Shown here piece by piece: positions 20,983-64,000 of a DNA stretch of 64,000 nucleotides. The stretch comes from Pycnococcus provasolii (taxonomy: Eukaryota; Chlorophyta; Pseudoscourfieldiophyceae; Pseudoscourfieldiales; Pycnococcaceae): assembly GCA_938743325.2 (NCBI GenBank), contig OW568877.1:248001-312000 (forward strand), in the 5' to 3' direction. How positions within the stretch are numbered: the stretch's first letter is position 1; each line of letters opens with the position of its first letter. The translations under genes were made by a program, and so were the position numbers. Below the pieces are notes generated by a model that saw only the letters and a program-made list of their open reading frames with translations, made no database searches and had not been told where the DNA came from.

Positions 20983-21615
20983 TTGATTCATGGCATGTTG
21001 ACTGATGACTGTTGATTGATGCCATCGTTATCATTATGGACGACGACGGCGTGAATTCCCATGGATTGATGGACTGATGGATCGCGCGCAACCAGACGCG
21101 ACGCGAATCCAGATGAAGCTGCAGATGAAGCTAACGGCTGCGTGTGAGACTTTCCGACTTCCATCCATGGCGTCCGACCGGCCATGCCAGGTTCTATATG
21201 TAGTGGGAGACACAGGAATGGAAAAATTGTGGGAAGTGCCGACCAAATTTGCCGACTTGGTAATTGATTGGCCAAAACCCCAAAGGAATCCCCGACTGAA
21301 TTTTTTTTTATAAAATTCCCCGAGAAAGTTACCTAAAAACTTTTTATATTTATGGGAGGGATCTCTGAAGGGAAAGGAAAAGGGAATTCAGTTCATTCGA
21401 AAGGAAGGTGGGAATTTGTGATTTCACGCATTTAGCCATTTAGGAAGGTTCCTTGCCTTCGTTGTGGCTTCTCACCTGCACTGGCTGGTTCTGGTGTGTT
21501 TTTTTTGATAATTCCAAGTGAGTCCCTGCCACCCTGCACTACCACCTGCCCTGCCCTGGTGCCTGGATGTGAAGTTCACTTTTCCTTTCACTTTTCATTG
21601 TGAAAATTACTCTCC
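20983..21615. other. Intergenic region, no gene seen
   Basis: Between the JmjC and protease genes. AT-rich in its middle (21300-21350) unlike the flanking genes. It probably holds the protease promoter; no clear element or structured RNA is recognised. Confidence 0.4.
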
Positions 21616-22346
21616 ATGGCGCTGATGTCGGTGATGTCTGTGAAGATTTTGTTCTTGGTCGTGCTCATCACTCTCTTTGTCGTGAATGCCGTTGTTGACG
21701 CTGACGCCAGTGATGACGCCGGTGAATACAACAACGACAACGATGCGGATGTCGATGCCGATGCGGATGAGGAATACGAGATGACAGCAGAAATGTCGAC
21801 GATGAGACTGGGAGAAATGATGCCGCCGCCAAACACGGATGCGCTGCGATTTCTTAACGAGAACAAACAGCAGTACTCATACCAGCACCAGTGCGTCTCC
21901 GCGTCGAAGGTGAGTGGATTCAAAGTGAAGCCCTCGAAGAGTCTGCTCATCGGACCGTGGGAGTCCAACAACGACCTCAAGAACCAGTTTACCTCGAGCT
22001 ATGGCCCATGTGCCAATCGCCACAATCGAAACCGTGCTCTCGGCGAAGCAGGATTGCCGAACGCAACGAAGGGGGCGATGCGCCTCAGTCGCAAGGAACA
22101 CAGGTACAACAAGAAGCAAAACAAAAAAACTGGGGGTCAAACCAAGAGTTTGTGTCGCGTTCCGTACGACATTCGCAGACCACCATACGACTTCTGGGCG
22201 TTTTTGACACCGTGCAAAAACCTCTTCACCTACTGGCTCAACGTGAGGGAGTGTCTAAAATGGCGCTTCTGGTGGATCGAGAACTACTACTATGGATATG
22301 GCGGTGGACCATTTGCGCCACCATCATCAACTTTGACGACATCGAC

Positions 22347-22378
<32 letters not shown>

Positions 22379-23391
22379 AAGCGACCAATTTGCCACGCTC
22401 CCTCTGTCCGTACCCACAAGGTTTGCCCGATCGCAGCCTGTACACGGTCACTCGAAGTATGCAAGGTAGTGGAGAAGATCGCCGCATGCCAATGAGTGCG
22501 AGGACGATGGATCTGGTCATGGAATCAGACGGACGTGTGGTGACGACACGGGAGAAAGAGATCATCGAGCTGCAAGAACGGCAGTGGCGTCGTAGTCCCT
22601 GGGGATTTCGCGACATCCGACAGGAAATCACGGCAGGAACACCAGCCACAGCACGCATCATCCAAGGTGAAGCTCCTCGGCAGCGTGATCTCTACCCGTT
22701 TCTCGTGTACTTCCCCGAAGGATGTGGCGGCACAATCATATCACCAACGAAGATCCTCACAGCCGCGCACTGCATCGCCGGCGAGCGCACATTCGGCACG
22801 ATCGCGCCAGGCAGCACTGCTCTGTTGGGATGCTACGCTCGTGGCACGGACTGCGGGGAGAGCATTCGCGTCGCGAGCGTCAAGGCACATCCCGATTTCG
22901 ATCTCAGGAAGGCGGAGTACAAGACGGACAATGACGTGGCTGTGGTGACTCTCGAGCGCCCGACATCCTATCCAGCCGTTCGCACGGCGGCAGATCCTGA
23001 GATGTTCGGTGCTTACTATCGCAAGGACAATGCCGCCGTCATCATGGGATGGGGCACGACGCGGGAGGGTGACCGTAATTCCGTGGCGAACACTGTGCGA
23101 CATGCAGAATTGAAGCTCGTGAGTGATCAAATGTGTCGGCAAGTGTACGGAAGTCGATCTCTAACACGGCAGATGTTTTGCGCGGGTGGTGATGGAAAGG
23201 ACAGCTGCCAAGGTGATAGCGGTGGACCTCTGATTGTGAATCCGAAATGCGGCGGCGACGAGGTGGTGCAGCTTGGCGTTGTGAGCTGGGGGCGTGGGTG
23301 CGGACGTACGGGAGTTCCTGGGGTTTACACCAACTTGGCGAGCGAGAAGATTGCAAAGTTTGTGTACGACGAGTGGAAGAACAATAACTGA
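21616..23391 (+). CDS. Secreted trypsin-like serine protease, copy 1
   Basis: 591 residues. Signal peptide at 1-28 (ILFLVVLITLFVV core), an acidic stretch, an unrecognised basic and Cys-containing middle of about 300 residues with a threonine run (coded by ACGACG repeats), then an S1 (chymotrypsin-fold) protease domain from about residue 340: the LTAAHC His385, NDVAVV Asp440 and GDSGGP Ser535 are all present, and Asp529 in the specificity pocket predicts cleavage after Lys/Arg. The activation site may be the segment ATARIIQGE, analogous to R-IVGG. Closely related at DNA level in its 3' end to the inverted copy at 27902-29770. Confidence 0.9.
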
Positions 23392-27901: not shown

Positions 27902-29770
27902 TTATTGCTTCCTCCACTCGTCGTACACAAACTTCGCAACCGACTCGTCCGCCAAGTTGGTGTAAACCCCAGGAAATCCCATACGTCCGCATCCTTTGCC
28001 AAAGCTCACAACGCCAAGCTGCACCACCTCGTCGCCGCCGCATTTCGGATTCACAATCAGAGGTCCACCGCTATCACCTTGGCAGCTGTCCTTTCCATCA
28101 CCACCAGCGCAAAACATCTGCCGTGTTAGAGTTCGACTTCCGTATCGACTTCGACACAACTCGTCACTCACGAGCTGTATCTCTGCATGACGCATCATGT
28201 TTGCCGCATTGCCATCCTCCCGCGTCGTGCCCCATCCCATGATGACGGCGGCATTGTTTTCACGATAGTATGCGCCAAGCTCCTGATTCGCGACACGAAC
28301 AGCCGGGGAACTCGTCGGGCGTTCGAGTGTCAAGACGGCGACGTCGTTGGTGAGACTTTTTGTCGTCTGGAACTGCCATCCAGGATGCACCGCGATGCGT
28401 GCAATGGGTATTTCTTCGCGGCAGTTCTTTCCGCGCTCGTGGCACCCAAAGTATGCCTTGGAACCGACTTTTAAACCTTTCGACATTCCGGGCTGAGCAA
28501 TGCAGTGCGCGGCTGTGAGAACCTTCGTAGGACCAATCACGGATCCGCCACAGCCACCGAGGAACACCAGAAAGGGGTAGAGATCGGGACGCAAGGCCAC
28601 TTCGCCACTGATTATGCGAAGTGTTGAATCTCCTGAGTCAATGCGCGATACTGCATCATCCGAGTCGTCGTCGGGTGGGAGAATAAGCTCGCCGTTGTCG
28701 TCAATGAACAGGCTGAGCGAGTTTTCATCGCTCATGGGCATCACCGGGGTCGTCGCGTTGTCGCCGTCGTTACTCCGAAGCAGACGAGTGGTGACGGTGG
28801 CAGGCAATGGCGATCGTTCTGGAAGGTTCCTTGGATAGTCACAAGTGGACGTCGGCAGCCTTCGGGTCACTGATGATGCGTCTGGAAGTTGTTGTGCAGA
28901 TGGGGGCTGCGGGTAGCCAAGCGACGGGTTGTAGTAAGGCCTTCCTGTTGACATCGGCGGCACTCTTCCTCCACTTCCGTATCCAGGTTCGTATGGGTTG
29001 CGATCGACGCTGTACGGCATGTTATAGGAGGAGTATGGTGTCATCGGGTTATTCGGGTATGACGATCCGCCGAAATGCGACGGTCGTCCATACGGGTTCA
29101 ACGGACGAGGTCCGTTGTTGTAGCCACCATAGTAGCCTCCTCCTGGTCTTCCTCCGACAAATGGCGGTGGCTGCGAGTAGGCGGAGCCTCCTCCTTGTCC
29201 TCCATAGCCTCCGACTGTTCCGCCACCACCAGGTGGTGGCAGAACCTGTGGTGCTGGCTGAACCTGTGGTGCTGGCTGAACCTGTTGTTGCTGAACCGGT
29301 GGTTGTCGAATCGGTGGTGGTGGCCGAACCGATGATGCCAGAAGCGGTGGTGGTGGTGGTGGCGGAAACCATGGTGACAAGATAGCGTTCAACATAGGGA
29401 AGAGTAGTCCGAAACGCAGTTCCTCATCGTCTTCCGGCCCAGGCGCAAAACCACTATCCACTTCTTCCACTTGTTCTTGGGGGACACGCGCCGCCGCCGC
29501 CGAGGGCGGAGACGGAGCGGGCGCCGGAGGCGACGTCGACGCCGCCGCCGAGGGCGGAGCCGGAGTGGCTTCATCACGAGCAACATCTTCGACTTCGTAG
29601 TAGTCGTACACCCCTGGTTCATCACTCTGGGCGCGGACGTAAGTGACTGAGCCTGAGTGGACCGATGTCGTGACGGCGAGGAAGAGAGACATGAGCAGAG
29701 TAGTGATAAGCAGCATCGTGAACGCGACACGTCCAGTGACGAGACGTGTGCTGAATTCGTTCCTCATCAT
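27902..29770 (-). CDS. Secreted trypsin-like serine protease, copy 2
   Basis: 622 residues from the ATG at 29770 (another ATG follows directly). A signal-anchor-like hydrophobic run (about 18-40), a Pro/Ala-rich region, a Gly/Tyr/Pro/Gln-rich low-complexity linker (about 150-300), then an S1 protease domain with intact triad His422, Asp476, Ser567 and the GKDSCQGDSGGP block, whose Asp predicts trypsin-like specificity. The last 250 residues are clearly paralogous to the protein at 21616-23391; the N-terminal linkers are not. It lies wholly inside the inverted-repeat unit, ending 43 bp from the inner border of the left arm. Confidence 0.9.
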   Translation of the reverse strand: MMRNEFSTRLVTGRVAFTMLLITTLLMSLFLAVTTSVHSGSVTYVRAQSDEPGVYDYYEVEDVARDEATPAPPSAAASTSPPAPAPSPPSAAAARVPQEQVEEVDSGFAPGPEDDEELRFGLLFPMLNAILSPWFPPPPPPPLLASSVRPPPPIRQPPVQQQQVQPAPQVQPAPQVLPPPGGGGTVGGYGGQGGGSAYSQPPPFVGGRPGGGYYGGYNNGPRPLNPYGRPSHFGGSSYPNNPMTPYSSYNMPYSVDRNPYEPGYGSGGRVPPMSTGRPYYNPSLGYPQPPSAQQLPDASSVTRRLPTSTCDYPRNLPERSPLPATVTTRLLRSNDGDNATTPVMPMSDENSLSLFIDDNGELILPPDDDSDDAVSRIDSGDSTLRIISGEVALRPDLYPFLVFLGGCGGSVIGPTKVLTAAHCIAQPGMSKGLKVGSKAYFGCHERGKNCREEIPIARIAVHPGWQFQTTKSLTNDVAVLTLERPTSSPAVRVANQELGAYYRENNAAVIMGWGTTREDGNAANMMRHAEIQLVSDELCRSRYGSRTLTRQMFCAGGDGKDSCQGDSGGPLIVNPKCGGDEVVQLGVVSFGKGCGRMGFPGVYTNLADESVAKFVYDEWRKQ

Positions 29771-30214
29771 CGTCACTCGTGAAAAGAAAACCTCCACAGC
29801 CCGGAATCGCAGTCAGTGAGTGACGATGATGACAAGGTTTTCAAGGGACAGGGAGGGGGGAATACGGCGGGGCCGGGGGGGGAGCGATCGATCGATGTGC
29901 AAGTGGGAAGCTGAAAAATGTGATTTCGTTCGGGAAGAAAATCTGATAGGGGGATGGTGTCATGGTGACAGAAATTGAAATTCGGGGATGGAATTCAGAA
30001 ATCGAAAAAGTGGGGAAAATTGAAAAAGCAATCCCGAAATCTCTCATTTTAGATTCTACTGTTTGACTGTAAATATCGTTCGCGTTCGGGGTTGGAGATC
30101 CGTTAAAATGGGGGACTCTTTGCAAAGTGCGATTTTGCGGGGCAATTAATTTTGTAGTTCAGTTGTTGTGACTTGTGAATATCCTGACTGTACCATGTTT
30201 CATCTTTTGGTTCC
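29771..30214. other. Upstream region of protease copy 2, no gene seen
   Basis: About 440 bases with AT-rich parts and several GAAATT/AAATT words. It probably holds the minus-strand protease promoter; no recognisable gene. Confidence 0.35.
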
Positions 30215-31552: not shown

Positions 31553-32010
31553 TGTTAAGGAATCACGTGATACCTCCTGAGGGATCACGTGATACCCGAA
31601 AGGGCTGAATCACGTGATACCTGGAAGGGATCACGTGACCCCTTGAAAGAAAGAGGGAGCTCGGAGAAGCCTCCCTCCCCCACCTTGTAAGGGAAGGTGG
31701 GTTCCGTGGTGGAAACAACCACGTACGGAGTTGATTATTGTTGTTAAGTGTTATCTCGTGTAACACTAGACGACCTTAAGTTACCTTTAAGTATATAACT
31801 CTCCGTGGTCCTCTCCCTCCACGTATTGGCCGGTGGTTTCCAACATGGAACCGGGTCGTGGCCGAGAAGGCCAAGTGGAACCACGGCTATCGCCGGAGGA
31901 CGCTGCGGAGGCTCGAAAGATCTTACATGCCCCGGAGGTTTCGACCGAGGTAAAAGACACCGTTCGCGAAATACTGGTGCAAGACCAAGAACGACGGCTT
32001 GGGCAGCTCA
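31553..32010. other. Possible further LTR-element debris with four TCACGTGA palindromes
   Basis: Four 8-bp palindromes TCACGTGA lie at 31563, 31585, 31610 and 31631. A plus-strand frame (31833-32036) of 67 codons runs into the right inverted-repeat arm and has no recognised domain. The arrangement could be the promoter-like end of another old LTR element, but no matching second repeat is seen in the window. Confidence 0.3.
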
Positions 32011-32270
32011 GGCACCCTGTGCGAGGAGGTTTTTGAGAAGTTGCACGCATGCGTGCTCAGGTTGATTTGCAGCTCCGTGTGTGCTCAAGCCGGGTAGGAA
32101 TGTTCGATGTAAGTACTTATCATACGATAAGTACTTAACGCTTGCATTAGTTGCATACAAACCCGGCCTGGTTTTGACCTTAAGTTTGACAACCAATTTT
32201 AGTTTAAAAAAAAAGAGAGCTTAATCAAGATTTTCGTAACCACTTTCCTTGTTCTCCGCGCGCAGCAAAA
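32011..32270 (-). repeat. Right arm of the long terminal inverted repeat
   Basis: Inverted copy of 27576-27858. Its outer end, CTCCGCGCGCAGC, runs straight into the A10 run (32267-32276) that is also the T-run following the permuted tRNA on the minus strand. The outermost 39 bp found on the left side are absent here. Confidence 0.8.
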
Positions 32271-32276
32271 AAAAAA
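32267..32276 (-). terminator. T10 run, probable RNA polymerase III terminator of the permuted tRNA
   Basis: On the minus strand ten T lie 7 bases after the last base of the tRNA 5' half (32284). RNA polymerase III stops at T4 or longer, so the transcript would end just past the 5' half, as expected for a permuted gene. Confidence 0.7.
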
Positions 32277-32283
32277 CTGTTGA

Positions 32284-32415
32284 TAACAGTCGCACGCTCT
32301 AGCCAACTGAGCTAAGGCTGACAGTAGTGTATGAGAATATTTCCTCAAGGTGTGAGAATATTTCCTCTTGAGAAAGAATCTCAGCCTGACGGGATCGAAC
32401 CGCCGACCTCGCGAT
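32284..32415 (-). tRNA. Circularly permuted tRNA-Asn(GUU)
   Basis: On the minus strand the 3' half comes first (32415 down to 32380: A38, anticodon-stem TCGCG, variable AGGTC, T-arm GGCGG-TTCGATC-CCGTC, acceptor AGGCTGA, discriminator G). A 58-base spacer follows (32379-32322), then the 5' half (32321 down to 32284: acceptor TCAGCCT, TA, D-arm GCTC-AGTTGGCTA-GAGC, G, stem TGCGA, loop CTGTTA). Joined at 37/38 the halves give a 74-nt cloverleaf: 7-bp acceptor with perfect pairing, 4-bp D stem, 5-bp anticodon stem closed by one G-U, loop CTGTTAA with anticodon GTT, and a T stem with one G-U. G73 fits tRNA-Asn. The B box lies upstream of the A box. CCA is not encoded. Permuted tRNAs mature through a circular intermediate cut by the splicing endonuclease. 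Confidence 0.9.
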
Positions 32416-32611
32416 AACCGGATTGTCGGGTAAATACATCGAATTCACGATGGATCGTCGTAGTGTCATGGTGACCGTGATAGTGTGACATGGATAATAA
32501 AGAAGAGCGTGCAGTCCCTGTCATGCATCCCTGGGATGGCGTCTGTGTGGCTCTCCCTCGCTCTTGCAGTATCTTCCTTCCTTCATTTCTATCTATCTTT
32601 TTGCGATCAAG

Positions 32612-33136
32612 ATGGTGCTGACGCTGCGAACAACAACAACCCGTGTGGCGTCGGCGGCAGCTCCACGACAACGCCACCATACCACTGCTCCTCGTCGAGC
32701 CACTACTCGTCGGCAGGCGAACACAGAGCCGCCGTCATCCTCTGTGGACCCGGCGACGATCGACGCGGATGCCGTGTACACGGGCGAGCCTGAAGTCGCC
32801 GCAAACGAAAGGCCGTCTGAGAAGTTTATGGTTCGCGACGGCAAGTTTCAGTGCACGAAGTGCAACTACGAGTACGACTCTTCGCGAGGTGATCCGGAGT
32901 ACCCCGTTTCAGCAGGCACGAACTTTGCAAACTTGCCTGATGACTGGACGTGTCCTACGTGTGGTTCCGCCAAGGCGCAGTTCAGCGTATCTCGCGAGGT
33001 GATTGCGGGTTTCGAGCAGAACCAGGGATACGGTTTTGGAACGAACAGCATGACAGGTGGTCAGAAGTCGTCGCTCATCTACGGCGCGCTGGCTTTCTTT
33101 TTCGCCTTGTTTCTTCTCGGGTACCTGCTCGACTAA
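32612..33136 (+). CDS. Membrane-anchored plastid rubredoxin
   Basis: 174 residues from the ATG at 32612. An Arg/Thr/Ser-rich N-terminus without acids (about 1-45) looks like a plastid transit peptide. The rubredoxin domain (about 70-125) has both Cys pairs, CTKCNYEYD and CPTCGSAKAQF, that hold one iron, and a single C-terminal membrane helix (IYGALAFFFALFLLGYLL) anchors it. This is the RubA/RBD1 architecture of cyanobacteria, algae and plants, where the protein is needed for photosystem assembly (photosystem I in cyanobacteria; photosystem II in green lineages). An upstream TTG in frame is not used. Confidence 0.92.
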   Translation: MVLTLRTTTTRVASAAAPRQRHHTTAPRRATTRRQANTEPPSSSVDPATIDADAVYTGEPEVAANERPSEKFMVRDGKFQCTKCNYEYDSSRGDPEYPVSAGTNFANLPDDWTCPTCGSAKAQFSVSREVIAGFEQNQGYGFGTNSMTGGQKSSLIYGALAFFFALFLLGYLLD

Positions 33137-46551: not shown

Positions 46552-48401
46552 GTTTTATGTTGATGTTGTTGTTTTGGTGGGTAGAAGGTTTCTTCGTCAG
46601 CTTGAGTTGATGTGCAATCATTTCAATCATCCACGCCACATCGCGCCCCACGCCTTCCATCCGACGGCGAAAAATCGCCGCAAGTCAATGATTTCTCCGC
46701 AGCGGCTTCGCACGCAGCGAATGCCGCGCACGTAGGAAGAACGAAAGTTATGTGTGAATTGCGAAATCGTCCTGTGGAAGGCTGCCCACCACCGGTCCTG
46801 TCTCTCAGCTCGTCAGAAACTTGGGTATAGTAACGAAGAAAGTGGTCTCATAGACAAAAGAGTCTCTGAAGGTGTCCTAAGAATTTGTTCTATCGAATTG
46901 TCCATCTTTCGAGCGAGGAGCAGGTTGGCTTTTTTTGTTGGTGGTGACACGCGCCAGCGGCAGCAGAAGCAGCAGAAGCAGAAGAGAGAGAGAGAAGGGT
47001 CAGGAAGAACGCAGCATACATGGTTAATCACTGTATTAGCTCAGCTCAAGTGTTGGATATCTCTAAAAGAGTTGTTTGTATTGTTTCGTCGTCACTCCCT
47101 CCTCTCTGTCTGTCTTTTGTCTCTGCCGTCTCTGCTTTGTGTGCGCGCGCCTTTCTTTTTTTCCCCTTTTTTTCTCGTGCCGTGTGAAGGTGAAGGGCAA
47201 AGCAGGTGACGTACCGACTTGTGACTTGCTGTTGAAACTTGCATGGTAAATTTGTTTTGTATGGATCTGTATTGGTGAGAGTTGTGGTTGTTTGTGAGTT
47301 TCGTTTTTTGTTTTTGTATGGCGTGTCAACCACAATGCTGCCCCTTGGTTATAGTTTGTCGAGCATCACCCGGGACCGTGCGGGTGCACACCAGTGTTAT
47401 CGATCTTCCCATAAGGCGGTTGGGGCGTGACGATCCACACGGGCTTCTTTGTAATTGTAGAGGATGAAGATTGTGGAGACACGCACGGAGATTCCGCTGG
47501 GTTAAGGAATCCAAGTTTTCTTTTTTTTTTGTTTCTTTCTTTCGGAGTGAAAGCGAAGCAAAGCAAAGAAAACAAAAAATCCGGATGTATGTGTGTGTGT
47601 ATCGAATATTCCTTCCTTATATCCAGCTTTCAGAATCGGGTAAAGCTTGCTTGTATGTATTTTGTCGTTCACTATGCTATGAAACATTCAGGTCTCAAAG
47701 ATTATATAGACATATGGAAACATCACCAAGCTGGAATATATAATATGGAATAGGACAAATGTCGAACGACTCCGGAATATTATACAGATACATACACACA
47801 CACACATAATAGTAGCAGATACACACTTAAGTGGCAAAGGCCCAAACCAGACCCAAAGCTAAACACACACACCGGTCATCAAAGGAACACCTCTGGACAC
47901 CTCCTCCTCCAAGATTCATTCGCAAAGGCAAAGGCAAAGGAAAACCAACCCAAAGCAACCAACCAACACACACCGACCAAACAAACAAACACACACATGA
48001 TGCTCATGCACAACTGAGAAACATAATAAAGAACATACCTGTTGTCAATCTGACTACGAAGAATACTGTGACTCACGGCTGCCTAGAGGAACGCAAGACT
48101 GGTAACATAAATTCAAACTATGAGGAAAGAAACACACCCGTGGATGCCGCCGCCATAGGAGATGAGATCTGCACCCCCCGGGAATGAGGGGAAAGGGAAC
48201 GCAAAAGGTGAGGGTGTTTGCGGATCCGTCTCCTGTTCAGTGGGGATCCGTCTTTGGGCTCTTTCGCCAGTACAGTATTCTTCAGACGGGGTGGGCTGTG
48301 GGGTCTTTGGGCATCCCTCGCGAGATCTACCAACTACCTTTAAGGTGATCTGGAAGGGGGAGCTCCGGGCAGCTCTTGTTAGAGTTAGGGTTTTGGAGTT
48401 A
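46552..48401. other. Gene-poor region with simple repeats and strand-biased A/C-rich DNA
   Basis: Contains CAGCAGAAGCAG and (GA)n repeats at about 46960-47000, T-rich tracts near 47150 and 47520, an (AC)n tract near 47795, and a plus-strand frame 47831-48187 whose strong A/C bias resembles the LINE coding strand downstream. It may be another LINE fragment. No host gene is recognised. Confidence 0.4.
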
Positions 48402-50824
48402 TCTTTCTTCCCTCGGAGGATCGATCCCATGGCGGGGGTCATGGTGGCGGCGGCGTTACGCAGCAGGAGGCACGCAGACAGAACGCAGCAAACGTCATTG
48501 TGTACGGTCAAGGATCCGTTGAGGTAAGGGCGGTCACCGTTGTCGCATCAAAATCATGCAGAAGCAGATCAAGGACGAGAGTGCAAACAGCGCACGGAAA
48601 GCTCTTTAGCATCAGCGACAGCGCAGGGATATCTGAAAGGGGGAGAGGCGGTTGAGCGTTCAGAGCGTCAACCGCCTTTCCCAGCAACCGCAGATATCCG
48701 ACCGGCACATACGATGCAATCTGCAAAACACAATGCATGAGGATCTCGGAGCGCGGCTTCGGTCGGGTCACAGGGCAAGTGAAACTCACTATTTTTGCTT
48801 ACACACACACCACAAAAATACCGTCCTAACGGAACCACCAAACAACCATCTCGACAACAGTAAGTCATCAACCACAACAACAACAATAACCTCAACACTT
48901 AACAGCCACACGACAAGCAACACAACAGCACCCCTAACACAAACCCAACAAACAATCACACAAACATCCCATCAACACTACAACACATCAATCAGATAAC
49001 AGCAACTGCACCAACAACACCCACACATCATCCAAACACACACACACCCACAGCATCACACCACCAACACCTTGTAATCACAACATTGAATGCGACCATG
49101 ACACCCACACAGCCAAGCCACCTCGACACACTTCCTCACTCCCGCCGTCACACCAAGCACGACGCGCGGGAACTCTAGAACTTCAAATTTCCCTCAAAAC
49201 CCTAACAACACTCCAACCCCCAAAAACCAACCTAACCATAACCCTAGCAGTAACCCTCCTGAAATCGGCAAACTCATCATTAACATCCACCCCCACGGAG
49301 CTCCTATGGGCACGATCCAAATCCTACAGATACACCCCAGCTCCTCCACGGGACCACCCTCCTGCACATGGATCCCCATCCGCATTCACAACACTCCAGG
49401 CTCGCTATACCTCCAAGCCACTTCACCTAACCCAGAAACCCACACATCAATCATCCACGCGCACCTCGACACCGGCATAAACACCCCGGCTGAACCAATC
49501 ACACAAGCGACTCCTATCAACAAGCCCGACCCTCCTCCTCTTCCAAACCCATCCACGAGCCAATGGCACCTACCAGGCCAACCCGAACTCACGGTTGACA
49601 CGGTCACCATCAGCCAAATCCACACATATCTCACCACACGAGACCTAATCCAACACAAAGGAGCGAACTCCATCCTCGACTACTGGCAACGCAAAGACGC
49701 CAACATCCCCGGACCCCCAGATCCAATCCTCCATCATGAAAAATGCACCACTGCCAACGTCCACCGCCAGCAAATCGCGCTCTCCGATGCATACTTCGCT
49801 TCAACACGAAAGCTATTCACAATGAGGGCACCCATCACCGCTCAAGCCTTATCCGGCAAAACCAATGGAAGCATACCAGATACATGCTCCACATGTCGCC
49901 ATAAGCCCACAGAACACAACACAACACCCCCCACAGAACATCTCACTCACCTGCTCAAAGAATGCCCTTATTCCATTGCAGTATGGCAAGCCATGGAAAT
50001 CACACTCACACACCTAGGCATCGACGCTGCCATCCCGATGCAGGAACTGCGATCTTCACTATTCGCCATGGCCTCAGGATTCGTTCTCAACCCCCCCTCC
50101 AACCCACAAACCACTGTAACGCCACAACCCATGTCATGGGAAGGTCAGGCTGAGGCACTCAACGCTCCTCCAATTCAACAACGACCCAAAACTCGAGACA
50201 ACCACCACCTCCCGCTATGGGCCCTTATCCACAGCATAGCCCTCAAAGCCATCTGGAACTGCAGATGCGAATGCGTCTTCCACAGCCCAGGCGAGCCACT
50301 CCCCCCATCCCCCCTCAAACGATTTCTCTTCTTCATACTCTCTTACATAACTACAGAACGATCAGTCAGACACTCCAGACGAAGCTTCCCCCTCTCAATA
50401 TGGAACCCTCTCCTAACTGCAAAATGCACGCCCACACTCTCCGCCAAACACCTACAAGAAACCAAGTTCAAAGAAGAACTAATCAATCAGATCATGAACT
50501 GCTCCCCGCCAACAATACACGAAACCCAACAAGACTCTTAAGTCTACTCAACACACGTAGGAAGAGATCCTCTCCTAACACGTCAACCAACACATGGAGA
50601 AGAGTCTGGGAGCGAAAATGGTAAATCAGGGATGTGGGAGGCTTGCTCAACTAGCAGGGGAACTTTTATGGGCTTGAATTGGGATGTTTTGAGTGTTATT
50701 TGTATGTAGGGTGGATTTGTCAGATGGTACACATACTGCATATACTTGTTCTGTCTTCGTTTAGGTACAGGAACTTCTTCTTGTAACCCCAATAGTCTGG
50801 AAAAAAAAAAAAAAAAAAAAAAAA
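48402..50824 (+). mobile_element. 5'-truncated LINE (non-LTR) retrotransposon with target-site duplication
   Basis: The element ends in a 25-base poly(A) run (about 50801-50825). The 15-mer AGGGTTTTGGAGTTA stands at 48387-48401 and again at 50825-50839, directly at the two borders, as a target-site duplication should. It contains the end of ORF2 (49306-50541). The 5' 380 bases differ in composition from the rest and include an imperfect hairpin (48627-48699), so the 5' part may be mosaic. The target was a telomere-like GTTAGGG tract upstream of the DHHC gene. Confidence 0.6.
49306..50541 (+). CDS. LINE ORF2 C-terminal part
   Basis: An open frame of 411 codons with strong A/C bias, unlike the GC-rich host genes. 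The segment CSTCRHKPTE...HLTHLLKECPYSIAVWQAM is the zinc-knuckle (zf-RVT) that follows reverse transcriptase in many LINEs, and later text (ALIHSIALKAIWNCRCECVF) matches the usual downstream helix with conserved Trp. The RT catalytic part is missing, so the copy is dead on arrival by 5' truncation. The first ATG is probably internal to the original protein. Confidence 0.7.
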   Translation: MGTIQILQIHPSSSTGPPSCTWIPIRIHNTPGSLYLQATSPNPETHTSIIHAHLDTGINTPAEPITQATPINKPDPPPLPNPSTSQWHLPGQPELTVDTVTISQIHTYLTTRDLIQHKGANSILDYWQRKDANIPGPPDPILHHEKCTTANVHRQQIALSDAYFASTRKLFTMRAPITAQALSGKTNGSIPDTCSTCRHKPTEHNTTPPTEHLTHLLKECPYSIAVWQAMEITLTHLGIDAAIPMQELRSSLFAMASGFVLNPPSNPQTTVTPQPMSWEGQAEALNAPPIQQRPKTRDNHHLPLWALIHSIALKAIWNCRCECVFHSPGEPLPPSPLKRFLFFILSYITTERSVRHSRRSFPLSIWNPLLTAKCTPTLSAKHLQETKFKEELINQIMNCSPPTIHETQQDS

Positions 50825-53730: not shown

Positions 53731-53813
53731 AGTGACGCGAAGGTTTTTTTGGGGGGAAATGTTTTTGACTTGAAATCTTAAAAATACATCGAGAATGAAT
53801 GAATCGTCGCGGA

Positions 53814-60867: not shown

Positions 60868-60945
60868 ACGGCCTGCTTCGCTCTCTCTAGAGCTCTTTTT
60901 TGAAACTTTTGGGAATACTGTACATATCAGAGTTGCGTTGACGGT

Positions 60946-63900
60946 ATGGCGGTCTCGGAGCTCCTTGCTGACGCTGACAATGCCTTGGAGGATGACGAGT
61001 TTGGTCCACCTCAGGCGTTGATCATTGACACTTCAGGAGGTGGTGGTGGTGCAGGTGCACGTGGTGGTGGTGGTGGTGTCAGTGGTGGTGGTGGTGTCAG
61101 TGGTGCGATGGCCATGGAGGACTCCGAGCATGATGATGAGGAGGAGTTTGACGATGCGATGGGTCTTGAAGATGACGATGTTGATGACGGTCTTGAGTTT
61201 GACGACGACTTGGAGGAAGAAGAGGAGGAGTTGGAGGAGGAATTTCACGACGACGACCTTGCTCTGGGGGTTGGTGAATTTGCTGACGACGACGGCTTTG
61301 GAGACATCAACGATGATGATGATGACGACGACGACGACGACGATTTTGAAGACGACGACGACGACGACGACGACGAGGACCTCCTCGCGTACGAAGCGCT
61401 CGCGTCGCAGAAACGGTCGCAGAACAAAAGCAAAAAACCTCGTGCGGACGCCATGGACGCCGACCCAGGCGGGTCCGCGCTCGCGTCAATACCAAAAAGA
61501 ACCAAGAGAATCAAAAAGGGACGGCGAAGGTCAGTCAGCACGGGCATACGCCTGCCGCGCCACCTGCCGGAACGCGTCGTCAACGCGCTGGGGCATTCCA
61601 ACCTGCTGCTTGGCGAAAATAAACTACAGGAGGCTTTCGACGCTGTCAGCGACGTCATCAAGGAGTTTCCCATACTCCCAGAGGCGTTCGAGCAACTTAG
61701 CATCATCTGGGAGCTTATGGGCGACGTACAGAAGGCGTTCGAGACGCAGAAGCTCTGCATCAGCATCCTGAACCCGAGAAGCATGCATGCCCACGGGTAC
61801 AACCAAATCTCCGGCGATATGGATGCCAGGGCGCTGATGAACGCCGAAGTGGGTAACGCCACACAGCTCGGCGTCTCTCAGACGGCGCTCAACTCTTGGA
61901 GGCGGTACGCAAACCTGGCAGTGAAGACTGGCGACTACGTCACGGCATTGAACGCGCTGCAGCAAATCATCAAGCTCGATCCGGAGGATGACGACACGCG
62001 ATGGGACCAGGCGATGCTGTACAACGAGCAGCTAGGCAGGCCAACGCGTGCGGTGACGATTCTTGAGGAGATGCGTGAACGACGTCCGACGGATGTGACA
62101 CTGCTCACGTCCATCGCGCGGCTTAACCACCAGATCGGAAAACATGACAAGGCGACCGAGGCTGTGCAGGCTGGACTGCAGGCTATCGTCGACAGCAAAG
62201 GCGAGCAGATGCTCGATCTCACAATCGTCAACATGCTCGCGGAGCTGCGCATGGAGCGCGCGGAGTTTGCCGAGGCACTCGCCCTCATCAGCGCCGCTGA
62301 CGCCGCCTGCGCCATGCCCGGGTGCACGACTGACGAGGACACGGGGCACCTGCGGCTGTCTCAGGACGCCAATGCGCGCCTAGCGCAGGGCTGGAAGGAT
62401 AAGCAGACTGTCTCGCAGCTTGCGAAGACGGCGTACGCGCAGGAGAGCGACACGGCGTCGTCCATTCCACTTGATCTGCAGGTCAAGGCGGGTGTGTGCT
62501 GCGTATACCTCGACACCGGCGGGCAGCGCGCGGAGCGATGCCTTCGAGAACTTGCCGAGAATGCTGACAGCTTAATTGAGCGAATAGCTGCCGAGTCGGG
62601 AAGTTCTGCCGCAGCAGCAGACGAGGAGCATGCGAAGGCGCCTTGCGATGCGCTGTACGCCGAGTTTGCAGATATCAAGGACCTGCTCGCCGACGCGAGC
62701 GATGCGTACATGGCAATTGATGATAAGCGCGCCACGATGGTGTGGACTCGACGGCTGCACCTCCATGTCCCATCGCCGTCGGCAGATGTCCCATTCGTGG
62801 CCGCGCCCGCGTCATCGTCCCACTCTCTGCTGCATTCCGCGCATCTCATCGCCAAAGGCGCATCAAATTTGCTCAGATGCGGCGACGCGGCACAGGCTGC
62901 TCACACGCAGCATACCGCGCTCGAGCTGTCCATGCGCGGCTCGCACGCAATGCAGACGAAGCGGATCGTAGAGAGCTCGGCGCTTAGTCTCGCGGAGCAG
63001 GCAGCAGCGGCGCGACGTGGCGCGCTGGAGGTGGGCGCGCACGACGACGTGGCGAGCGCCACGGCTGCAGCACATGAGCTACTTGCACTGGCGAAGGCTG
63101 CAGGTGGGGCTGGTGGTGTGATATCTGCAGACGTGCGCGACGACGCGCGACGCGCTGCGGGGGAGGTTTCACGCCTTGCAGCGCGTTACGGTGCGACGAT
63201 CTCTTCCTGGTGCGACCCATTCGCTGGAGAGGAGGCGATTGCTGTGTGGACTCAGCGTCACAGCGGCGTCCTTCGCCACGCGAGCGTGCTACTGCAGCTT
63301 GAGGACCACCAGGCTTTCGTGGATGCGACGCGCAGCATCGTCATTGGCAGCATTCCTGGCGCGTGGATGGCGCTCGGCCTCGACGATGCCCCGCCCGAGA
63401 CTGAGGATCCCAATTTGACAGGGTGGGTCCCAGGTCCTAGGGCACGCGAAAGGTATCGAGGACCTCGTCACGAGCTTAACCTCATGTTCAATGAGCCGCG
63501 CCAGACCAGCCTGTTCACAGCTCACGTTCGATCGATGGCACAGATTGGCCAAGTTGAGCTGGCAAGATCGCTCCTGAACCACGTCAACGACATGTGGACC
63601 GGCAAGCAGCGCGTGGTGCCGCGCACCGAGTTGCCATGTCGTTTCGACTTGCGCATCTGCGAGCACGACATTTGGGCAATCAGTGGCGACTACGGCGCGT
63701 CGTGGAATGCCGCGTTGCAAGCAACTCGCCAGCTACCGTCAGAGCCTAGTGGCTGGAATGCGCTGGCACGCACGATACCTCACGTAGCTGGAGGAGCTCA
63801 GCGCCCCGGCGCAATGGTCGGGCCGGATCCGCTGCGTAGCTACATTCATCTTTCTCGCAGCAACGAAAAGGGTCGAAGTGCTGGCGCACACCTCGTCAAG

Positions 63901-64000
63901 GGGCATATGGAGATGATCCGCATCTCCGACGATGCATACGCTATGGCTGTTAGGCGTTACCTTCGCGCACACCGCGCCGCACCGACGGAGCCGCTTCCTC
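60946..64000 (+). CDS. TFIIIC TPR subunit (TFC4/GTF3C3-like), 3' end outside the window
   Basis: At least 1018 residues, open to the window end, from the ATG at 60946. A Gly-rich and then extremely Asp/Glu-rich N-terminus (about 30-150) and a basic patch (RSQNKSKKPRADAM, KRTKRIKKGRRR) lead into TPRs: LGHSNLLLGENKLQEAFDAVSDVIKEFPILPEAFEQLSIIWELMGDVQKAFETQ (about 205-270), WRRYANLAVKTGDYVTALNALQQIIKLDP (about 320-350) and following repeats. This acidic-N-terminus-plus-TPR layout and the LGEANLL-type first repeat are those of TFIIIC102/tau131, which binds the A-box side of tRNA genes and recruits TFIIIB. Confidence 0.82.
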   Translation, partial: MAVSELLADADNALEDDEFGPPQALIIDTSGGGGGAGARGGGGGVSGGGGVSGAMAMEDSEHDDEEEFDDAMGLEDDDVDDGLEFDDDLEEEEEELEEEFHDDDLALGVGEFADDDGFGDINDDDDDDDDDDDFEDDDDDDDDEDLLAYEALASQKRSQNKSKKPRADAMDADPGGSALASIPKRTKRIKKGRRRSVSTGIRLPRHLPERVVNALGHSNLLLGENKLQEAFDAVSDVIKEFPILPEAFEQLSIIWELMGDVQKAFETQKLCISILNPRSMHAHGYNQISGDMDARALMNAEVGNATQLGVSQTALNSWRRYANLAVKTGDYVTALNALQQIIKLDPEDDDTRWDQAMLYNEQLGRPTRAVTILEEMRERRPTDVTLLTSIARLNHQIGKHDKATEAVQAGLQAIVDSKGEQMLDLTIVNMLAELRMERAEFAEALALISAADAACAMPGCTTDEDTGHLRLSQDANARLAQGWKDKQTVSQLAKTAYAQESDTASSIPLDLQVKAGVCCVYLDTGGQRAERCLRELAENADSLIERIAAESGSSAAAADEEHAKAPCDALYAEFADIKDLLADASDAYMAIDDKRATMVWTRRLHLHVPSPSADVPFVAAPASSSHSLLHSAHLIAKGASNLLRCGDAAQAAHTQHTALELSMRGSHAMQTKRIVESSALSLAEQAAAARRGALEVGAHDDVASATAAAHELLALAKAAGGAGGVISADVRDDARRAAGEVSRLAARYGATISSWCDPFAGEEAIAVWTQRHSGVLRHASVLLQLEDHQAFVDATRSIVIGSIPGAWMALGLDDAPPETEDPNLTGWVPGPRARERYRGPRHELNLMFNEPRQTSLFTAHVRSMAQIGQVELARSLLNHVNDMWTGKQRVVPRTELPCRFDLRICEHDIWAISGDYGASWNAALQATRQLPSEPSGWNALARTIPHVAGGAQRPGAMVGPDPLRSYIHLSRSNEKGRSAGAHLVKGHMEMIRISDDAYAMAVRRYLRAHRAAPTEPLP

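Follow-up and report, generated by a model that had tools for sequence, protein, structure and literature searches.

A probable type II circularly permuted gene for tRNA-Asn(GUU)

Background

Only a modest number of circularly permuted tRNA genes has been catalogued: the table of Soma 2014 (PMC3978253) holds 34 of them, from six algae and one archaeon, with intervening sequences in the range 1–74. The same source reports, for Cyanidioschyzon merolae and for green algae, that a linear precursor passes through a circular intermediate to become a mature tRNA ending in CCA, and it describes a T-stretch behind the 5′ half of the C. merolae genes. It also gives 37/38 as the junction at which the halves of the green-algal permuted genes meet, a position shared with nuclear introns (PMC3978253). 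Furthermore, permuted tRNA genes have been reported from a second nucleomorph, that of Amorphochlora (PMC4494063). How RNA polymerase III finds permuted genes, with their A and B boxes inverted, is presented as an open question (PMC3978253). Among the matches listed from the titles and abstract beginnings of the openly licensed literature, there was no later survey of algal permuted tRNAs, and PMC13353863 mentions permuted tRNAs in its reference list only. Since ordinary finders such as ARAGORN and Rfam can miss permuted tRNA genes, each further example adds to a small set.

Here we follow up a first-pass annotation of one such candidate within a window of 64,000 nucleotides, by which we mean the whole stretch of DNA that was analysed. 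We conclude, with considerable confidence, that the locus is a working nuclear gene for tRNA-Asn(GUU), circularly permuted and of type II (37/38).

Results

Gene layout and cloverleaf

The locus has a permuted gene order, a complete cloverleaf and a T-run. The minus strand carries first the tRNA's 3′ half (positions 38–73; 32380–32415), then a 58-nt intervening sequence (32322–32379), which RNase P and tRNase Z would remove, and finally the 5′ half (positions 1–37; 32284–32321), the limits of both halves being taken from the sequence and from the ARAGORN join. The swapped order of the halves, as well as their coordinates, had been claimed in the first-pass annotation and were recovered on this strand. 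In the 3′ half we read the end of the anticodon loop, the 3′ strand of the anticodon stem (TCGCG), the variable AGGTC, the T-arm GGCGG-TTCGATC-CCGTC, the acceptor strand AGGCTGA and the discriminator G; the 5′ half comprises the acceptor strand TCAGCCT, the D-arm, the 5′ strand of the anticodon stem (TGCGA) and the loop CTGTTA with the anticodon GTT. Behind the 5′ half, a trailer TCAACAG (32277–32283, minus strand) leads into a run of ten T (T10; 32267–32276, minus strand), which probably serves as the RNA polymerase III terminator. The presumed leader or upstream region of the permuted gene (32416–32515, minus strand) is also the 5′ flank of a divergent rubredoxin gene.

Much of the intervening sequence is filled by an 18-nt direct repeat (32329–32346 and 32350–32367; 94% identical, 21-nt spacing), a possible cause of its length, and a weak hairpin can form within it (z −1.9 and −2.3).

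Joined into 74 nt (32284/32415), the two halves read TCAGCCT-TA-GCTC-AGTTGGCTA-GAGC-G-TGCGA-CTGTTAA-TCGCG-AGGTC-GGCGG-TTCGATC-CCGTC-AGGCTGA-G, which ARAGORN calls tRNA-Asn(gtt) with the anticodon loop CTGTTAA. All 21 stem pairs are present (7/7, 4/4, 5/5 and 5/5, with G-U allowed), and so are U8, A14, G15, G18 and G19, A21, U33, A37, C48 and the T-loop TTCGATC among the conserved positions. A full cloverleaf of 74 nt with a 7-bp acceptor stem, the anticodon GTT and discriminator G, as proposed earlier from the letters, is thus what the join gives. G73 and the anticodon GUU are identity elements of eukaryotic Asn tRNAs, and we take the joined tRNA to resemble those of plants.

Searches for ordinary tRNA genes and chance controls

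Conventional searches pass the locus by, as is expected for a permuted gene. Neither ARAGORN without introns nor Rfam at gathering scores finds any tRNA across the window, and Rfam at relaxed scores finds none within 31800–32900, where a single sub-threshold match, to mir-4428 at 32710, is of no weight. An ordinary or intron-containing tRNA gene was rejected for the locus, as ARAGORN with introns allowed gives nothing there; elsewhere in the window, the same setting yields a tRNA-Cys(gca) with an 81-nt intron (63010–63187, plus strand) inside the GTF3C3-like reading frame described below, which is probably a false positive. Likewise rejected was a tandem pair of full tRNA genes. Its second halves, already denied in the first-pass annotation, did not turn up when the window was scanned without gaps: the 3′ half has no second copy at an identity of at least 62%, and elsewhere the 5′ half is matched at 24/38 at best (at 53812). 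Scans of IMG/VR for both tRNA halves gave no matches, and those for the rubredoxin and KH/WW proteins encoded nearby gave 19 and 75 pattern hits, respectively, none of which was confirmed.

The two halves might be a chance likeness with no tRNA gene behind it. A scan for the permuted order, allowing an intervening sequence of 0–120 nt on both strands of the window, returned a single place, with full stem scores. When the window was shuffled 150 times with dinucleotides preserved and both strands were searched, relaxed stems did produce 8 places, so that partial likenesses do arise by chance, whereas full stems produced none in any of the 150 shuffles. A further control, which tests the fixed geometry of the permuted locus only, took 132-nt stretches at every third base of both strands, removed the middle 58 nt and closed the remainder head to tail: ARAGORN found a tRNA in 4 of 42,580 stretches, all four at the permuted locus. 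Three of these calls were Asn and one was Thr, the latter because of the sampling offset, which shifts the frame. The probability that we attach to chance likeness is next to nil.

Transcription signals

As the earlier reading had it, T10 follows the 5′ half; it lies at a distance of seven bases and is the only run of at least four T on the minus strand from 32515 to 32240, so that none lies between the tRNA halves. This bears on the proposal that the locus is an assembly artefact in which an ordinary tRNA gene had its halves swapped. Such a swap is unlikely because it would leave the terminator behind the 3′ half, yet the sequence after the 3′ half has no run of four T before T10, which sits behind the 5′ half instead. 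It is also unlikely that a swap would break within the anticodon loop, where permutation usually occurs. We consider an artefact of this kind very improbable indeed.

Upstream of the 3′ half, two possible TATA-like elements were noted on the minus strand, the AT-rich TATTTA (32436–32431) at 21 nt and TTTATTAT (32501–32494) at 86 nt. A distance of 21 nt is close for a TATA box, and these AT-rich elements are weak.

Taken together, the order of the parts, the cloverleaf, a junction compatible with 37/38, the T-stretch and the absence of flanking halves from the window support the permuted-gene reading and correspond to type II.

Junction and splicing motif

To place the junction, 100 combinations of the inner ends of the two halves were tried in ARAGORN; 13 of these, among them six of the nine with a length of 74 nt, were read as Asn(gtt). 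Two 74-nt joins keep A37 as well as all stem pairs, namely 37/38 (loop CTGTTAA) and 38/39 (loop CTGTTAT), while a third, with the loop CTGTTTA, places U at 37. Joins shifted by one or two bases to one side were rejected for that same loop and its U at 37, those shifted by three or four bases to that side for an anticodon GGT, and those shifted by at least two bases to the other side for broken stem pairs. We prefer 37/38 over 38/39 because the former is the known cut site. The 37/38 join of the first-pass annotation therefore stands in that it fits the cloverleaf, but not as the only solution, as 38/39 fits the stems equally well.

At 37/38, the central helix of a BHB-like motif would set C32 U33 G34 U35 against the leader positions i−3 to i−6, giving C-G, U-G, G-C and a U-C mismatch, that is, three of four pairs, one of them G-U, without an outer helix. 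The pair C32-G(i−3), at the position of the anticodon-intron pair, can form, and the 5-bp anticodon stem forms; the numbering of C32-G(i−3) as the anticodon-intron pair is our assumption. This helix is weak support for the junction, because 13.0% of the tetramers in the window do as well (at least three of four pairs including position 32), and 3.3% pair at all four.

ACTGTT in the 5′ half is able to base-pair with the trailer around a triloop ATC. The resulting hairpin, ACUGUU-AUC-AACAGU, has −5.0 kcal/mol (z −2.26 for the segment 32295–32270, a value equalled or bettered in 7 of 200 shuffles). Locally it is the favoured structure, and it masks both C32 and the anticodon. The incomplete junction motif and this trailer hairpin are the odd points of the permuted gene.

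Among longer foldings, the minimum free energy (MFE) of a 176-nt precursor is no better than that of shuffles (z −0.94), and that of the joined tRNA is mildly better (z −1.78). The unconstrained MFE structure of a 179-nt precursor contains the acceptor stem, the T-arm, four of the five anticodon-stem pairs and the trailer hairpin; at 206 nt, acceptor stem and trailer hairpin persist, and the T-arm and anticodon stem are lost. In all three MFE structures (joined tRNA, 179 nt and 206 nt), the D region adopts an alternative 5-bp hairpin, TAGCT/GGCTA, rather than the canonical GCTC/GAGC.

These odd points would also suit a young, non-functional relic, in which a tandem pair of tRNA-Asn genes has lost its outer halves, a loss proposed to begin permutation, and other Asn genes do the work. 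By eye, the 6-mer GTTATC is common to both open ends on the minus strand: it enters the 3′ half at 32418–32413 and leaves the 5′ half at 32287–32282, as remnants of the lost outer halves might do; it may be the trace of a tandem tRNA pair stripped of its outer halves, or may have arisen by chance. Besides this 6-mer, the incomplete junction motif and the competition from the trailer hairpin speak for a relic, and tandem duplication followed by loss of the outer parts is an origin model that has been published for permuted genes (PMC3978253). However, loss of pairs would be expected in any relic that is not very young, and here every stem pair and all of the checked conserved positions are intact and a T-stretch sits behind the 5′ half. 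We regard a relic as unlikely and keep a working permuted gene as the preferred reading.

Neighbouring genes and flanking features

The divergent rubredoxin gene starts with an ATG at 32612, 197 bp from the tRNA 3′ half. By eye, its protein has an N-terminus rich in S, T and R and a C-terminal hydrophobic segment. As this rubredoxin is of the plastid type and shows no obvious signal peptide, it suggests a primary plastid, and the source is accordingly taken to be a photosynthetic eukaryote, most likely a green alga. Other proteins of the window include D27-like, C2CD3-like, EF-hand, SNARE and EF-G proteins. These neighbours look eukaryotic, and the C2CD3-like protein hints at basal bodies.

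The window also encodes, in opposite orientation, a pair of proteins (21604–23391, plus strand, and 27902–29812, minus strand) whose C-terminal parts are trypsin-like and resemble each other and whose N-terminal parts are low-complexity or proline-rich; the assignment is based on the Pfam trypsin family for 27902–29812 and was made by eye for 21604–23391. The stretch 48000–50541 shows strong AT and GC skew over 48001–50000 and includes an open frame that resembles, by eye, the terminal part of a LINE-type retroelement, with no Pfam match. Close to the permuted gene, two inverted repeats were noted. The arms of the first (14 nt, 86% complementary; 32103–32116 and 32430–32443) flank the gene at 313 nt from each other and may be due to chance; the second, the perfect 12-bp repeat TAAGTACTTATC with a 4-nt gap (32110–32137), lies 147–174 bp downstream of the 5′ half.

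Discussion

Maturation of the tRNA

If the pathway of C. merolae and the green algae is applied by analogy to the tRNA-Asn(GUU) locus, RNA polymerase III would synthesize a single transcript, consisting of leader, 3′ half, 58-nt intervening sequence, 5′ half and trailer and ending in T10. Within this transcript, the cloverleaf would have its acceptor end closed by the intervening loop and its anticodon loop open. The tRNA splicing endonuclease would then remove leader and trailer, and a ligase would seal 37 to 38, creating a circle from which RNase P and tRNase Z would excise the intervening sequence; CCA would be added, and the tRNA would finally be charged by AsnRS. It is from C. merolae and the green algae that we infer transcription, processing, the exact 37/38 join and function of the gene.

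A TFIIIC-like gene in the same window

An open reading frame on the plus strand (60904–63999), which runs off the window, has an acidic N-terminus and TPRs. Its best PDB match besides designed TPR proteins is human GTF3C3 (8clk_D), with E 2.2e-7 over 173 residues when a 219-residue part was searched and 2.9e-4 for the whole frame. Yeast tau131 matches it at E 0.16, and its C-terminal 603 residues have no PDB match up to E 1. Judged by this similarity, a GTF3C3/tau131-like gene is present, which suggests that TFIIIC is at least partly present in the organism. For C. merolae, homologues of TFC1 and TFC3, which are other TFIIIC subunits, are described as not identified (PMC3978253). A lineage with a GTF3C3-like gene could therefore serve to test the use of TFIIIC on permuted genes.

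One may go further and combine these points into a joint reading, namely an algal lineage outside the described ones that has kept TFIIIC, that matures the tRNA at a junction other than a standard hBH and in which anticodon loop and trailer form a hairpin with the cut site at 37 in its triloop. As a whole, we find this combination doubtful. If the reading of the trailer hairpin is true, circularisation would rely on a different mode of recognition or on refolding.

Comparison with known permuted genes

The permuted tRNA-Asn(GUU) gene is rare, and it is not new in kind, because permuted type II genes are known, Asn(GTT) of Ostreococcus tauri among them. The original source for the O. tauri gene is reportedly Maruyama et al. 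2010. As tabulated, that gene agrees with the present one in isotype and anticodon, in the type II junction at 37/38, the join preferred here, and in having no intron (PMC3978253, Table 1). The two differ in their intervening sequences, 22 bp in O. tauri (PMC3978253) vs 58 here. At 58 nt, the intervening sequence would rank third longest in the Soma 2014 table, after 74 and 64 (PMC3978253).

More generally, the type II genes of Micromonas, Ostreococcus and the Bigelowiella nucleomorph share with this locus a leading 3′ half, the 37/38 junction preferred here and a short intervening sequence, but an hBH at the junction is described for them (PMC3978253), whereas here only three of the four central pairs form. 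Cyanidioschyzon merolae (Soma et al. 2007, via PMC3978253) has the same order of parts and likewise a T-stretch behind the 5′ half. Its junctions fall at four sites, in contrast to the anticodon-loop junction found here, and most of its genes are described with a TATA-like element at most 50 bp upstream (PMC3978253), whereas weak AT-rich elements are all that this locus offers. Finally, permuted tRNA genes are also reported for the green alga Auxenochlorella, with their halves reversed in the same manner as here (PMC12633428).
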